Under the pieces are notes generated by a model. It made no database searches. It was not told where the DNA came from and was given only the letters and a program-made list of their open reading frames with translations. A stretch of DNA of 48,259 bases from Bacteroidota bacterium. GTDB taxonomy: Bacteria; Bacteroidota; Bacteroidia; Bacteroidales; JACABE01. Positions within the stretch are counted from its first letter, which is position 1; each line of letters begins with the position of its first letter. The translations under genes and the position numbers were made by a program. Below, one piece after another: positions 35,524 to 40,784 of the stretch. The stretch is taken from contig JACABE010000031.1 of the NCBI GenBank assembly GCA_013377005.1, positions 1 through 48,259 of the forward strand, written 5' to 3'.

Positions 35524-36075
35524 TTAAACTAATTGAACAGCTTTTATTAATTCTTTACCAACTTCAATTGCTTTTTCATTTTCAGGGATCAACTTATGAT
35601 GACGTGCTGGTAATGATTTTTCTAAGCCTTTGTGAATAAATTCAGGTTGAATTAGCGGTTTAAGTTTTAAGAAACCACCCAAAACAATCATGTTGAAAGT
35701 TTTCATTAATCCTTGCTTTCCAGCTTCTTCCGAAGCTTCAATGGTATAGATATTAATATCTTTACGTTCGGGATGATGAGTAATTCCGTTTGGATCATAA
35801 ATAAGTAAACCTCCTGGTTTAACTGTATCTACAAATTTGTCCATAGATTGCTGGTTTAAAATAATAGCAGTATCGTAGCTATTAATAACCGGAGAGCTGA
35901 TACGTTCGTCGCTAAGTACAACTGTTACATTTGCAGTACCACCACGCATTTCTGGACCATAAGAAGGCATCCAGCTAACTTCCTGATTTTGCATTATGCC
36001 GGAATATGCAAGAATTTTACCCATTGATAAAACACCTTGTCCTCCAAAACCGGCTATGATTATTTCTTCTGTCAT
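35524..36075 (-). CDS. korC: 2-oxoacid:ferredoxin oxidoreductase, gamma subunit
   Basis: Gamma subunit (183 residues) of the CoA-acylating 2-oxoacid:ferredoxin oxidoreductase, the domain that helps bind CoA. Typical motifs are IIAGFGGQGVLSMGKILA at the N-terminus, SWMPSYGPEMRGGTANVTV and SSPVI. It is last in the korD-A-B-C series on the minus strand (28 bases from korB) and is followed by a terminator. The enzyme may act on 2-oxoglutarate or on branched-chain 2-oxoacids (annotated VorABC in some relatives); the sequence alone does not settle this. Confidence 0.92.
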   Translation of the reverse strand: MTEEIIIAGFGGQGVLSMGKILAYSGIMQNQEVSWMPSYGPEMRGGTANVTVVLSDERISSPVINSYDTAIILNQQSMDKFVDTVKPGGLLIYDPNGITHHPERKDINIYTIEASEEAGKQGLMKTFNMIVLGGFLKLKPLIQPEFIHKGLEKSLPARHHKLIPENEKAIEVGKELIKAVQLV

Positions 36076-36102
36076 AATTTCAATTTTTTTATAATTAAAA
36101 AA

Positions 36103-36888
36103 TTATTTAACCAATTGACCATCTACTTTAATATCTCCTAATGGATAAAATGGAAACATATTTTCTTCCATCCATTTATTAGATTGAATAGGGGTCATCT
36201 TCCAACCTGAATTGCAATTAGAAACGATTTCAACAAAAGTTAAACCTTTATTTTCTTTTTGCATATCAAAAGCTTTACGAATTGCTTTCTTGGTTTTACG
36301 AACGTTTCCTGGCGTATGAACTGACTGACGAGTTACGTAACGAACACCTGGAAGTTGAGCTACAAGTTCTGTCATTTTAAGCGGATTGCCCATTGTAACA
36401 ACGTCACGACCATAGGGACAAGTAGATGCTTTCATATTTGGCAATGTAGTTGGAGCCATTTGACCTCCGGTCATTCCATAAATGCCGTTGTTGATAAATA
36501 TAATGGTAATATTTTCGCCACGATTACAAGCATGGATTGTTTCAGCGGTTCCAATTGCAGCTAAATCTCCATCACCCTGATAAGTAAATACTAACTTTTC
36601 AGGCATTAATCTTTTAACAGCAGTAGCCAAAGCAGGAGCTCTGCCATGTGCAGCTTGCTGCATATCAATATTCATAAATTCGTAAGCTAATACTGAACAT
36701 CCAACAGGAGCTATACCAATGGTTTCGCTTTGAGCATTCAATTCTTCAATCACTTCCATCACAATTCTGTGTGCAGTTCCATGACCACAACCCGGGCAAT
36801 AGCTTAAAGCTTTGTCTGTAAGTAATTTCGTTTTTGTATAAACTAAATTTTCAGGTTGTCTGATTTGTTCTTTTGTTATTTCTGACAT
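36103..36888 (-). CDS. korB: 2-oxoacid:ferredoxin oxidoreductase, beta (thiamine-diphosphate) subunit
   Basis: A 261-residue subunit carrying the thiamine-diphosphate site: GDGDLAAIGTAETIHA with NNGIYGMTGGQ about 30 residues later. The N-terminal YCPGCGHGTAH and IAPVGCSVLA supply cysteines for the [4Fe-4S] cluster typical of the family. Only four bases separate it from korA upstream. Its cofactor is the product of ThiL, encoded at 4523-5575. The substrate is a 2-oxoacid, probably 2-oxoglutarate. Confidence 0.93.
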   Translation of the reverse strand: MSEITKEQIRQPENLVYTKTKLLTDKALSYCPGCGHGTAHRIVMEVIEELNAQSETIGIAPVGCSVLAYEFMNIDMQQAAHGRAPALATAVKRLMPEKLVFTYQGDGDLAAIGTAETIHACNRGENITIIFINNGIYGMTGGQMAPTTLPNMKASTCPYGRDVVTMGNPLKMTELVAQLPGVRYVTRQSVHTPGNVRKTKKAIRKAFDMQKENKGLTFVEIVSNCNSGWKMTPIQSNKWMEENMFPFYPLGDIKVDGQLVK

Positions 36889-36892
36889 TGTA

Positions 36893-37975
36893 TTAACCTC
36901 CTATGATTTTTTGTTCTAAAGCTGCTACTACTTCATCCGGTGTAGGAATAATTCCGCCATAACGTCCGAAATGTTCAACTTTTATTTTACATTCAACTGC
37001 TAATTTTACATCTTCCACCATTTGCCCTAAGCTCATTTCTACAGAAAGAATACCTTTAACCTGAGTTGCTAATTTTGCCAATGGTTTTTTAGGAAATGGA
37101 AATAAAGTAATCGGACGTAACAAACCAACTTTGATACCTTTGGCTCTGGCTATGTCAACAGCTTTTTGACTGATACGTGCACTTGAACCGTAAGCAACAA
37201 TTAGATATTCAGCATCTTCAGTTTGAAACTCTTCGTATCTAACTTCATTTTCTTCCATAGCTTGATATTTTTCAGCTAAATGGGTTACATGTTTTTCCTG
37301 TTTATGAGAATCAAGATCTAAAGAAGTTATGATATTTCTTCCTCTGTCATCAGTTTTTCCATAAGTTGCCCATGGTGTATTGGCTTTGATTTCTTCTTTA
37401 GTGAAACGAGGTTGATGTGGCTGAAGTTCTACTTTTTCCATCATTTGTCCGATAACACCATCAGAAAGGATTAAAACCGGATTGCGATATTTGAAAGCTA
37501 ATTCAAAGCCTAAGCCTGCAAAGTCAGCCATTTCCTGAACAGATGCAGGAGCTAATACTAATAATCTATAATCGCCATGTCCACCTCCTTTGGTAGATTG
37601 GAAATAATCAGATTGAGCGGGTTGAATAGTGCCTAAACCAGGACCTCCACGAACAACATTTACAATTAAACAGGGAAGTTCAGCTCCTGCAATGTAAGAA
37701 ATTCCTTCTTGTTTTAAACTTATACCGGGGCTTGAAGAGGATGTCATCACTCTTTTTCCACAGCTAGCGCCACCATATACCATATTGATAGCTGCTACTT
37801 CACTTTCTGCTTGCAAAACAACCATTCCAGTTGTTTTGTGAGGTTCTTGGTACATCAAATATTCCATTACCTCGGATTGAGGAGTAATAGGATATCCGAA
37901 ATAACCATCACAACCGGCACGAATAGCAGCTTCTGCCACTGCTTCATTACCTTTCATTAATCTCAGTTCTTTCAT
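36893..37975 (-). CDS. korA: 2-oxoacid:ferredoxin oxidoreductase, alpha subunit
   Basis: Alpha subunit (360 residues) with the pyrimidine-binding half of the thiamine site and the transketolase-C-like domain. Visible are GYPITPQSEVMEYL, QAESEVAAINMVYGGASCG, TSSSSPGISLKQEGISY and, in the C-terminal domain, VAYGSSARISQKAV. There is no N-terminal gamma fusion, consistent with a separate korC. It is the second gene of the operon, 31 bases after the ferredoxin gene. Many relatives are annotated 3-methyl-2-oxobutanoate dehydrogenase subunit VorB, so the exact 2-oxoacid is uncertain. Confidence 0.93.
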   Translation of the reverse strand: MKELRLMKGNEAVAEAAIRAGCDGYFGYPITPQSEVMEYLMYQEPHKTTGMVVLQAESEVAAINMVYGGASCGKRVMTSSSSPGISLKQEGISYIAGAELPCLIVNVVRGGPGLGTIQPAQSDYFQSTKGGGHGDYRLLVLAPASVQEMADFAGLGFELAFKYRNPVLILSDGVIGQMMEKVELQPHQPRFTKEEIKANTPWATYGKTDDRGRNIITSLDLDSHKQEKHVTHLAEKYQAMEENEVRYEEFQTEDAEYLIVAYGSSARISQKAVDIARAKGIKVGLLRPITLFPFPKKPLAKLATQVKGILSVEMSLGQMVEDVKLAVECKIKVEHFGRYGGIIPTPDEVVAALEQKIIGG

Positions 37976-38006
37976 TCCTTTGTATTTAAAACTGTTAAAA
38001 ACGTTT

Positions 38007-38228
38007 TTATAACTTTATTTTATAGACAGTGATTACACCATCAGGACATACGATTGCACAATTGGCACAACCAATACATTCCTCATTAATGGATTCAGCA
38101 TAATGATAACCTTTTCCATTTACATTTTTTGCCATTGCAATAACATCGTTCGGACAGGCAGTTATACATACTTCACAGCCCTTACACTTCTCAATATCAA
38201 TTACAATGTCCCCTTTAACTTTTGCCAT
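38007..38228 (-). CDS. korD: 4Fe-4S ferredoxin subunit of 2-oxoacid oxidoreductase
   Basis: A 73-residue delta subunit with two [4Fe-4S] binding motifs, CKGCEVCITACP and CIGCANCAIVCP, each CX2CX2CX3CP. It passes electrons from the oxidoreductase to soluble ferredoxin. It is first in the kor operon. A near-consensus -7 element (TAATTTCG on the minus strand, 38284-38291) lies about 60 bases upstream. Confidence 0.95.
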   Translation of the reverse strand: MAKVKGDIVIDIEKCKGCEVCITACPNDVIAMAKNVNGKGYHYAESINEECIGCANCAIVCPDGVITVYKIKL

Positions 38229-38621
38229 TTTTAAAATGAATTAAGTTGAATACTTATAAAAATAATACTATTTTTTAATGCAACGAAATTAGAGAAAATA
38301 TCTGAATTGGAGGTTTATTTTTTAATTTATTTTAAACTTTCAAAAAGAGAACGCTGCTCAAAAGATTAGTTATAAATTAAGTATATTGAATATTAATTTA
38401 AATGATCGCATGTTATTTTAATTAAAATTTAGTTGAAAAATCATTCAAGAAACTCACGTAAATTATAATTAATCAAAATTTTTCAGTGGAAGTATAAATC
38501 ATTTTTATAGGTAAGAATTATCTGATAATTCGGAATATTTGAATTGGTTTTAAATTATCATTTTCTTGATAATTAGTGTTTTCTAATTAATGATGAAGAA
38601 TAATTGAAATTTAAAGCTTAA
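38229..38621. other. Gene-free AT-rich region with two inverted GATAATT pairs
   Basis: These 393 bases separate korD from the dCMP deaminase gene; no open frame of note was found. They hold a near-perfect palindrome, GAATTATC-T-GATAATTC (38515-38531), and a second pair AATTATC/GATAATT (38553-38559 with 38568-38574). A possible korD promoter lies at 38284-38291. The palindromes could be an operator or end structures of the deaminase transcript. Confidence 0.4.
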
Positions 38622-39113
38622 TTATTGTTTCTCATACTGTTGAATTTCATCAAATACAAATTCAATACTGATGCCTGCCTGACGGAACATTTCTTCCGAT
38701 TCTAATCCACTATGGTATTTACGTTCGCAAACTACACGCTGGATACCACAATTAATAATTAGCATGGCACAGGTACGACAGGGGGTCATACGGCAATACA
38801 ATGTAGCACCATCAAGAGAAATACCAAGCTTTGCTGCTTGACAGATGGCATTTTGTTCAGCATGTACTGTTCTTACACAATGATTAGTGACTTTACCATC
38901 TTCGTGAGTTACCTGTTTAAACAAATGACCTACATCGTCGCAATGTGGCAATCCCATTGGAGAGCCCACGTAACCAGTCACCAATATTTGTTTGTTACGG
39001 GCAATCACACATCCGCTTCTTCCTCTGTCGCAGCTGGCACGTTTTGCAATAGTATTGGCTACTTCTATAAAATATTCGTCCCAAGTAGGGCGTATGTATT
39101 TTTCTTCGCTCAT
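38622..39113 (-). CDS. dCMP deaminase
   Basis: Zinc enzyme deaminating dCMP to dUMP for dTMP synthesis. Zinc-site motifs are HAEQNAI (His and catalytic Glu) and PCRTCA (PCXXC); RPTWDEYFIEVANTIAKRASC and GCVIARNKQILVTGYVGSP are typical of the ComEB/DCD1 family. From the ATG at 39113 it has 163 residues; the frame extends four codons to a TTG inside the upstream gene. The ATG is chosen because it lies one base after the neighbouring stop codon. The upstream gene encodes a P-loop kinase-like protein; together they mirror the two-domain layout of yeast Dcd1. Confidence 0.92.
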   Translation of the reverse strand: MSEEKYIRPTWDEYFIEVANTIAKRASCDRGRSGCVIARNKQILVTGYVGSPMGLPHCDDVGHLFKQVTHEDGKVTNHCVRTVHAEQNAICQAAKLGISLDGATLYCRMTPCRTCAMLIINCGIQRVVCERKYHSGLESEEMFRQAGISIEFVFDEIQQYEKQ

Positions 39114-39114
39114 A

Positions 39115-39672
39115 TTATTTTTCAATTTGGTTAAGAACTTCTTCTACTTTTAACTGTAAATTTTCAATACTACCAGAGTTTTCGAAAACATAATCGGCCA
39201 TTTCAATACATTTTCTGAGGTTTTGTTTAGTCGGGTCGCTGGTATTCATCTCTCGTTGCTCATTTTGGAGAAAAGTATTGTAGTTAATATTATCTGTTTC
39301 CGAATTTCGGAGAATGATGCGTTCAAATCTCAATGGCGAAGGTGCATCTATAGCAAACAAAAAGAAATTACCTTTTTCCCTGAGCGAATCTATTTCACCG
39401 GGAGTTCTGATACTTTCGATTATACAATTTTCGCCGGAAAGCAATGCTTTAAAATATAACTGATCCGTAACATAAGAAGGTGAATGTTTTGAGCGGAGTT
39501 CGTTGGCAACAATTACCATACTATCACGGTTTACAGGCATTTCTCTTTTTTCAATTTCCTCAATCAAAAAGCTTCGTACCGAATAATGTGTAAATTTTTT
39601 ATGATTGACAAGATATTCAACAATAGTTCCTTTACCTGCACCCAATGTTCCTGTAATTCCTATTATCAGCAT
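39115..39672 (-). CDS. P-loop kinase-like protein coupled to dCMP deaminase
   Basis: A 185-residue P-loop NTPase with Walker A GTLGAGKGT at residues 8-16, related to dephospho-CoA and nucleoside-monophosphate kinases. Other visible parts are ESIRTPGEIDSLRE and FFLFAIDAPSPLRFERI, where a nucleotide kinase has its Asp/Arg lid region. The substrate is unknown: a dNMP, dephospho-CoA or a regulatory nucleotide are all possible. The ATG at 39672 is chosen over a TTG ten codons upstream because the product then starts directly with the first beta-strand. Its stop is one base from the dCMP deaminase start, so the two are translationally coupled. Confidence 0.8.
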   Translation of the reverse strand: MLIIGITGTLGAGKGTIVEYLVNHKKFTHYSVRSFLIEEIEKREMPVNRDSMVIVANELRSKHSPSYVTDQLYFKALLSGENCIIESIRTPGEIDSLREKGNFFLFAIDAPSPLRFERIILRNSETDNINYNTFLQNEQREMNTSDPTKQNLRKCIEMADYVFENSGSIENLQLKVEEVLNQIEK

Positions 39673-39725
39673 AATATTATAAATCTTTGTTTTGTCAAAC
39701 AAACTTATTAATAGTTGTTTGTTTA

Positions 39726-39733
39726 CAAAATTA
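39726..39733 (-). promoter_or_regulatory. Promoter -7 element of the kinase/dCMP deaminase pair
   Basis: Minus-strand TAATTTTG matches TAnnTTTG, leaving a leader of about 45 bases before 39672. A -33 element is not clear. Confidence 0.45.
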
Positions 39734-39766
39734 TTATTTTTAATTTAATTTTAGCTTTATTATTTT

Positions 39767-39774
39767 TAAATTTG
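39767..39774 (+). promoter_or_regulatory. Promoter -7 element of manA
   Basis: TAAATTTG matches TAnnTTTG and lies 29 bases before the ATG at 39804. It is divergent from the kinase promoter. Confidence 0.45.
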
Positions 39775-39803
39775 TAAGAATAAAAACAGAAACACTTTTT
39801 AAA

Positions 39804-40784
39804 ATGAATCAATTATACCCTATGCAATTCAAGCCCGTCTTTAAAGACAAAATCTGGGGCGGTATGAAAATAAAAACCGAATTAGGACTGGATTATGCGC
39901 CTTTGCCTAATTGTGGTGAAGTATGGGCGCTATCTGGCATTGAAGATAATAATTCAGAAGTGGCAAATGGTTTTTTGGAAGGAAATGAACTCAATGAACT
40001 CGTTGAAGTATACATGGGCGATTTGGTAGGAGATGCCGTTTATGAAAAATTTGGTAATGAATTCCCTATTTTGATAAAATTTATAGATGCCAATGATTAT
40101 TTATCCATACAAGTACATCCCGATGATGCATTGGCAGCCAAACGTAAAATAGGTTATGGTAAAAGCGAAATGTGGTACATATTGCAAGCCGATGAAAAAG
40201 CTGAACTGATTACAGGTTTTAATCAGAAAGTCAATAAGGAAAGCTATATAAAACACTTGCAAAATAAAACTTTAAAACAAATACTGAATATTGAGAAAGT
40301 TAAGAAAGATGAAGTATTTTATATTCCTGCCGGACGTGTTCATGCATTGGGACCTGGCTTGTTACTAGCAGAAATTCAACAGACTTCCGATACTACCTAT
40401 CGCATTTACGACTGGGACAGGCTGGATGATAAAGGCAATCCGCGTCAGCTGCATGTGGAAGAAGCCCTGGATGCTATCGATTTTGAGGTATATGACAATT
40501 ATAAAACAAATTATCCACATACCCTGAATAAAACGGTGAATGTAGTTGAAACTCCTTTTTTTACGACCAATGTGTTACAGTTAGATAAAAAACTGGAGAA
40601 AAATTATGAAGAACTGGATTCATTTGTAATCTTTGTATGTATTCATGGAAAGGGGGAACTGCATTATGGAAGCGAAAAACTTGATTTCAAAAAGGGCGAA
40701 GTTGTGCTTTTACCTGCTAATATAAATAAGATTCAATTATTGCCTTTAGAGGAGATTAAGCTGCTGGAGGTGTATATAATATAA
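39804..40784 (+). CDS. manA: Mannose-6-phosphate isomerase, class I
   Basis: Zinc enzyme that interconverts mannose 6-phosphate and fructose 6-phosphate. Cupin-fold metal ligands are visible: Gln and His in SIQVHPDD (about residues 101-108), Glu in GKSEMWYIL and His in AGRVHALG. The 326 residues match the short Bacillus/Bacteroides form. The N-terminal FKDKIWGG motif is typical. It lies 71 bases upstream of the phoH-like gene on the same strand. A short ATGAATGATGAATA-type repeat follows the stop. Confidence 0.93.
   Translation: MNQLYPMQFKPVFKDKIWGGMKIKTELGLDYAPLPNCGEVWALSGIEDNNSEVANGFLEGNELNELVEVYMGDLVGDAVYEKFGNEFPILIKFIDANDYLSIQVHPDDALAAKRKIGYGKSEMWYILQADEKAELITGFNQKVNKESYIKHLQNKTLKQILNIEKVKKDEVFYIPAGRVHALGPGLLLAEIQQTSDTTYRIYDWDRLDDKGNPRQLHVEEALDAIDFEVYDNYKTNYPHTLNKTVNVVETPFFTTNVLQLDKKLEKNYEELDSFVIFVCIHGKGELHYGSEKLDFKKGEVVLLPANINKIQLLPLEEIKLLEVYII

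Follow-up and report, generated by a model that had tools for sequence, protein, structure and literature searches.

A P-loop kinase-like protein paired with a dCMP deaminase in Bacteroidales and Nanobdellota, best read as a housekeeping unit

The yeast protein Dcd1 has a housekeeping role in dTTP synthesis and consists of an N-terminal P-loop-like domain followed by a dCMP deaminase; its P-loop is degenerate. The phage-defence protein AvcD (DcdV) likewise has a kinase-like domain in front of a zinc deaminase. In the accessible parts of two papers on AvcD the kinase-like half is not discussed (PMC10511110, PMC9455884). A pairing of two proteins of these kinds was not described in the literature search listings, from which these two papers, PMC2765170 and PMC10733785 were consulted.

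The DNA analysed here (the window, 48,259 nucleotides) carries such a pair as two genes. Reading both frames confirmed the first-pass annotation of a P-loop gene with an intact GTLGAGKGT motif one base upstream of a deaminase gene with zinc motifs. The features are:

39115..39672, minus strand: P, a P-loop nucleotide-kinase-like protein of 185 aa (ATG at 39672, stop at 39115)
39625..39651, minus strand: Walker A motif of P, GTLGAGKGT, residues 8-16, read from the sequence; its lysine is kept in 106 of 106 aligned P rows
39292..39330, minus strand: lid-like stretch of P (R115, R118, R122, D127), from alignments and residue counts; called a lid by analogy with NMP kinases
38622..39113, minus strand: D, a dCMP deaminase-type protein of 163 aa (ATG at 39113, stop at 38622), from profile and structure-database matches
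38856..38864, minus strand: HAE zinc/catalytic motif of D, residues 84-86, read from the sequence
38769..38783, minus strand: PCRTC zinc motif of D, residues 111-115, read from the sequence

P lies upstream of D, and the single base between them is 39114. A gene on the opposite strand, which we take to be manA following the earlier naming, starts at 39804, 131 bases from the start of P. On the other side the pair adjoins a 2-oxoacid:ferredoxin oxidoreductase-like set (35524-38228; gamma, beta, alpha and ferredoxin, recognised by eye from the translations). Beside the pair itself no gene for dNTP synthesis was recognised. The region 37800-40200 gave no Rfam match, in a search that may not cover AvcI, the RNA antitoxin beside AvcD. 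The pair reads MLIIGITGT, AIDAP and RPTWDEYF, similar but not identical to the patterns that the first-pass annotation gave for Dcd1, MLIGVSGT, SIDAP and RPSWDSYF.

D passed the Pfam cut-off for dCMP_cyt_deam_1 (PF00383; E = 1.3e-24, 86.5 bits against 25). Its best NCBIfam match was ComEB (4.2e-31), and its nearest solved relative was the dCMP deaminase of S. mutans, 2hvv (6.9e-26). The zinc motifs H[AVSC]E and then PCxxC were present in all 86 D rows, copies included. D thus resembles the ComEB/dCMP deaminase family in profile match, zinc motifs and the fold of the deaminase part of a fused model (see below), but differs in scoring under the cut-off of TIGR02571 (107.9 bits against 219.45) and in being about 32-39% identical to the deaminase of 20 other Bacteroidales which lack P. 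Since its nearest solved relatives are dCMP deaminases, D probably deaminates dCMP. Four other PF00383 matches occur in the genome: two TadA-type-like and one cytidine deaminase-like (partial sequences), plus an open frame of 349 aa. P matched AAA_18 (4.4e-9) and AAA_17 (3.8e-7) in Pfam, with CoaE at just 0.014. In NCBIfam its best match was PRK08356, a 'hypothetical protein' (8e-16), followed by an anti-phage deaminase model (9.3e-13); all NCBIfam matches of P and D were below the curated cut-offs.

The AF2 model of P had a pLDDT of 91.8. Its best fold match was 3lw7, an adenylate-kinase-related protein whose entry title describes it as bound to AMP (Z 21.4, rmsd 2.2, 167 aligned residues), followed by adenylate, phosphomevalonate and UMP/CMP kinases (Z about 14-16). 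UPF0200/SSO1041 (3lw7 and 3h0k) and the NMP kinases therefore represent the nearest solved fold, and a profile match to them was found as well (E = 7.5e-9), but identity to 3lw7 was only 19% and those entries are single-domain chains. In its predicted fold, Walker A lysine and lid arginines P has the features that define the NMP-kinase superfamily. Conservation in the 106 P rows was almost complete not only for the Walker lysine but also for E93 (106), R115 (105), R118 (104), R122 (103), R60 (102) and R89 (101). P looks like an active kinase. In a model of the fused form, the deaminase part matched the fold of the 2hvv-type dCMP deaminases; the arrangement of the two domains is unsure, because the pTM was just 0.62.

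P and D matched successive parts of the PADLOC dCTPase (AvcD) profile PDLC02373, namely positions 155-331 (E = 8.2e-20) and 334-484 (1.7e-20) of 630. The AvcD-like domain order noted in the first-pass annotation therefore holds, and natural fusions of P and D share it. In a profile comparison P aligned with the AvcD N-terminal domain over residues 2-184 (probability 97.4, E = 1.5e-11). Against NF041025, a single-chain AvcD model with a cut-off of 400 bits, the two genes scored apart gave 47.8 (P) and 65.7 bits (D). A search of 296 sampled Bacteroidota turned up AvcD proper in seven, with at least 297 bits in each and four above the cut-off. All seven proteins kept R60, E93 and R115 and had K or R at position 89, but R118 was R in only two and R122 in only one. 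The full GxxxxGK[ST] loop was found in none of them. Six lacked the Walker lysine, and the seventh (L111) has a lysine in that column within CSPIGSLKEK, without the preceding glycine. The Walker A loop is thus broken in these AvcD proteins and two of the lid arginines are mostly lost, so that P looks active and the AvcD domain decayed. The pair further differs from AvcD in being encoded by two genes, in occurring as one copy per genome across part of an order, and in the absence of any mobile or defence context in the surroundings inspected. AvcD is best read as a relative of P-D whose kinase part decayed, which would make P the older state. A special relationship between D and the AvcD deaminase was not supported by profiles, since the deaminase of genomes lacking P matched AvcD equally well (3.6e-22 versus 2.7e-21). 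In a quick tree of D, AvcD grouped with some archaeal deaminases that have P as a partner (support 87).

It had been considered that P might be the only dephospho-CoA kinase of the genome. This is not the case: P scored 15.5 bits against a CoaE cut-off of 27, and a separate CoaE (131.3 bits) is encoded on another contig. In the profile comparison that CoaE against AvcD gave a probability of at most 60.8%, over 21 residues. The view that P replaces Tmk found no support either. PF02223 matches occurred in Bacteroidales with and without P (31 of 59 genomes at 1e-6) and no sorting by P was seen; two Tmk-type genes were present in each of the two nanoarchaeal genomes tested. The genome of the window itself has a dTMP-kinase-type gene elsewhere (PF02223 35.3 bits, above the cut-off; TIGR00041 40.7 bits, below it). 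PF02223 reached E < 1e-40 in just three of the 59 Bacteroidales relatives, and the dTMP kinase of many of them is unclear from Pfam. Nor was P supported as the only (d)CMP kinase of the archaea that possess it. TIGR02173 gave some match at 1e-5 in 22 of 30 chosen genomes and exceeded its cut-off in ten, all of them archaeal genomes with P. Because a separate archaeal (d)CMP kinase above the family cut-off thus exists in 10 of the 18 archaeal P genomes searched, the role of P there is not simply that of a sole dCMP kinase. Four archaeal P genomes had no TIGR02173 match and in a fifth P itself was the sole match; these genomes may be incomplete.

The proposal that P and D form one functional unit depended on their adjacency being conserved in relatives. 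We surveyed the neighbourhoods of the 80 best among at least 516 confirmed P relatives, two of the 80 being Nanobdellota. P and D were adjacent or fused at 64 of these 80 loci, which supports the proposal: 29 loci encoded single fusions of 342 aa and 35 had D next on the same strand (gap below 400 bases). At three loci D lay about 3 kb further on, at three it was on the opposite strand, and ten had no D on the fetched stretch. Two additional fusions (L019 and L028) were found, and altogether 31 of 103 P rows, three copies included, had P and D in one chain. In the P tree these 31 rows fell in three places; four changes were needed, two of them forced by well-supported branches. One locus, L053, has unfused P and D nested in the main fused clade, representing either a secondary split or a frameshift or sequencing fault in the assembly. 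Since fused and unfused rows are mixed on the trees, they do not fix whether the separate genes are the unfused ancestor or a split form.

Among 59 Bacteroidales genomes, the window's own included, P was found in 23, and D (at E < 1e-77) in exactly the same 23. Weaker D matches occurred in three further genomes: G054 has a fragment of 66 aa, and the proteins of the two others are 39% identical. In seven of the 23 genomes P and D were on different contigs, and no P was present within roughly 1.5 kb on either side of D. At E 1e-12 a ComEB-type deaminase was matched once in each of 54 of the 59 genomes, this being D in 23 and another protein in 31; five genomes, among them G054 and G056, had no match at this threshold. 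Neither the window's own genome nor any other of the 23 with P has a ComEB-type match at 1e-12 besides D. The 20 of the 31 alternative deaminases that were read, which showed the low identity to D given above, had no P on the stretch fetched. On an rpoB tree made by a quick method for the 55 genomes that carry the gene, the presence of P-D required three changes; well-supported branches forced two of these. A branch with support 100 separated 32 rows which all lack P, and the remaining changes came from G054 and G056, which were placed among genomes with P-D but lack a full deaminase match. The match across 23 genomes is therefore close to one event on this tree and should not be counted as 23 independent cases. 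More weight falls on the fact that D has retained P across deep divergence, and also where the two genes are no longer linked. In a sample of 395 genomes from the phylum, P was found at E 1e-12 in the window's own genome only, five other genomes of the same order being among the misses. P is rare in the phylum beyond its part of the order.

P is also common in the archaeal phylum Nanobdellota, where a profile search found it in 225 of 371 genomes at 1e-12. Seventy archaeal loci were examined, comprising the 30 best and about every third listed row of ranks 31-148, with weaker rows left out. P was fused to a deaminase at 34 of them and adjacent to one at 17; 19 had no deaminase on the fetched stretch. 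The motifs H[AVSC]E and then PCxxC were present in 50 of 51 partner deaminases, the exception (L281) reading HGE. At one nanobdellotal locus, L106, the gene order is nrdR-nrdD-nrdG-P-D-DHH phosphoesterase, and a second, L080, has nrdD-nrdG-P-D-DHH in common with it. This suggests that at both loci the class III reductase set, P, D and the DHH phosphoesterase form one transcription unit for dNTP synthesis. Between the two loci P is 78% identical and D just 51%, which would fit replacement of the deaminase next to a P that was kept. The archaeal partner deaminases fell into several groups, and the fused state required 16 changes on the D tree, seven of them forced; this mixture of fused and unfused rows points to repeated fusion, splitting or re-pairing.

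For the wider gene context we counted Tmk, ThyX, ThyA, DHFR, dUTPase (Dut), dCTP deaminase, NrdD, NrdG and NrdJ-type families, checking one representative of each against Pfam. Among the archaeal loci, such genes were near P at 21 of the 34 with a fusion, at 15 of the 18 with an adjacent deaminase (counting L080) and at 10 of the 19 with no deaminase; a 'Tmk-like' cluster (L225) was counted though it has no Pfam match, and excluding it lowers the adjacent loci to 13 of 18 with the others the same. A dNTP gene was present at 23 of the 40 P loci sampled for comparison (6.2 kb on average) and in 0 of 39 control stretches from the same genomes (mean 6.0 kb). This contrast is partly circular as the families were picked for recurring near P, although the identified ones belong to one pathway. 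Five of the 19 deaminase-less loci had a dCTP deaminase (Dcd) gene on the stretch, and their P rows form one group in the P tree. By contrast, inspection by eye of the 22 largest clusters of neighbours from 78 Bacteroidales loci gave no recognisable dNTP gene, the commonest neighbour being a PurE-like protein. The pathway context is thus archaeal. In the D tree the 15 Bacteroidales rows fell within the range of the archaeal sequences, interspersed with four archaeal rows. Of the 35 Bacteroidales rows in the P tree, 33 formed a group (support 92) that also holds one archaeal row and is part of a wider group of mixed composition; both trees were made by a quick method and have weak deep forks and midpoint roots. 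P-D has probably passed between Bacteroidales and Nanobdellota, in one direction or the other.

An explanation has to accommodate the observed pairing and its conservation, the fusions, the intact motifs, the predicted fold and the genome context. We consider it likely that P-D is a housekeeping unit of dUMP and dTTP supply, composed of a competent NMP kinase, most likely for dCMP, and a dCMP deaminase. This agrees with the first-pass annotation, which had taken one housekeeping unit as the default; the separate CoaE, the conserved adjacency and the natural fusions support it. D would turn dCMP into dUMP for thymidylate synthase. P would be a dedicated nucleoside-monophosphate kinase of this branch point, and the reaction that it would most likely catalyse is dCMP + ATP <-> dCDP + ADP. 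In the forward direction it would save dCMP for dCTP, and in reverse it would feed D with dCMP from the dCDP/dCTP pool made by the reductase. dCMP is our choice as the putative substrate of P because it is the substrate of D at the branch to dTTP, and because P running in reverse would be a source of dCMP wherever di- or triphosphates are the products of the reductase. P and D may be in physical contact, and dCMP may be channelled between them.

The strongest competitor, which we nevertheless regard as unlikely, is that P is a nucleotide-sensing regulatory subunit which switches D on or off without metabolic turnover, the AvcD N-terminal domain doing the same within one chain. The full-length alignment of P with that domain agrees with this, as does the fact that the seven AvcD proteins keep R60, E93, R115 and R or K at position 89 but no full Walker A, as a ligand-binding pseudokinase would. 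A pure sensor, however, need not keep the Walker lysine, R118 and R122, which are nearly invariant in P, and a subunit specific to D leaves unexplained the five archaeal P genes that stand beside a dCTP deaminase with no dCMP deaminase on the stretch. Far less probable still is a nucleotide-depletion module for phage defence, in effect a split AvcD. Both halves do match the PADLOC dCTPase profile and NF041025, but the latter far below its cut-off. No relatives were found in the phages, plasmids or viral contigs searched, none of 10 neighbouring proteins matched PADLOC at 1e-5, and the setting is not that of an accessory, mobile or defence island. Moreover, throughout a large part of the order the pair takes the place of the other dCMP deaminase, and many archaeal copies lie among dNTP genes. 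This alternative, also raised in the first-pass annotation, consequently lacks support. We give equally little credence to P being a kinase of another substrate, CoaE-like or for dTMP, that stands beside D for co-expression only. The weak CoaE matches and the shared P-loop fold might suggest it, but CoaE and a dTMP-kinase-type gene exist elsewhere in the genome, and P is fused with deaminases in several separate cases, which speaks for a direct link between P and D.

The housekeeping reading can be extended, speculatively and with rather more doubt than confidence, to a bifunctional branch-point enzyme in which a dCMP kinase running in reverse hands dCMP, drawn from the dCDP that the reductase makes, straight to D. 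dUMP would then be made without dCTP deaminase in organisms with class II/III reductases, namely in Nanobdellota and, through gene transfer, in Bacteroidales. In this view the active kinase P would be the ancestor of the pseudokinase domain in AvcD and perhaps of that in yeast Dcd1, the nucleotide site having been kept as a sensor.

The P-D unit, common to a large part of Bacteroidales and to Nanobdellota, is best read as housekeeping. The names given to P in the libraries stop at 'hypothetical protein' or 'AAA domain'. Behind them stands a large family with an intact kinase-like half, often encoded by its own gene and in archaea tied to DNA-precursor synthesis, so that its activity can be assayed in isolation. 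The family could explain the origin of a phage-defence domain, and could indicate which dCMP deaminase system many uncultured Bacteroidales and Nanobdellota use.
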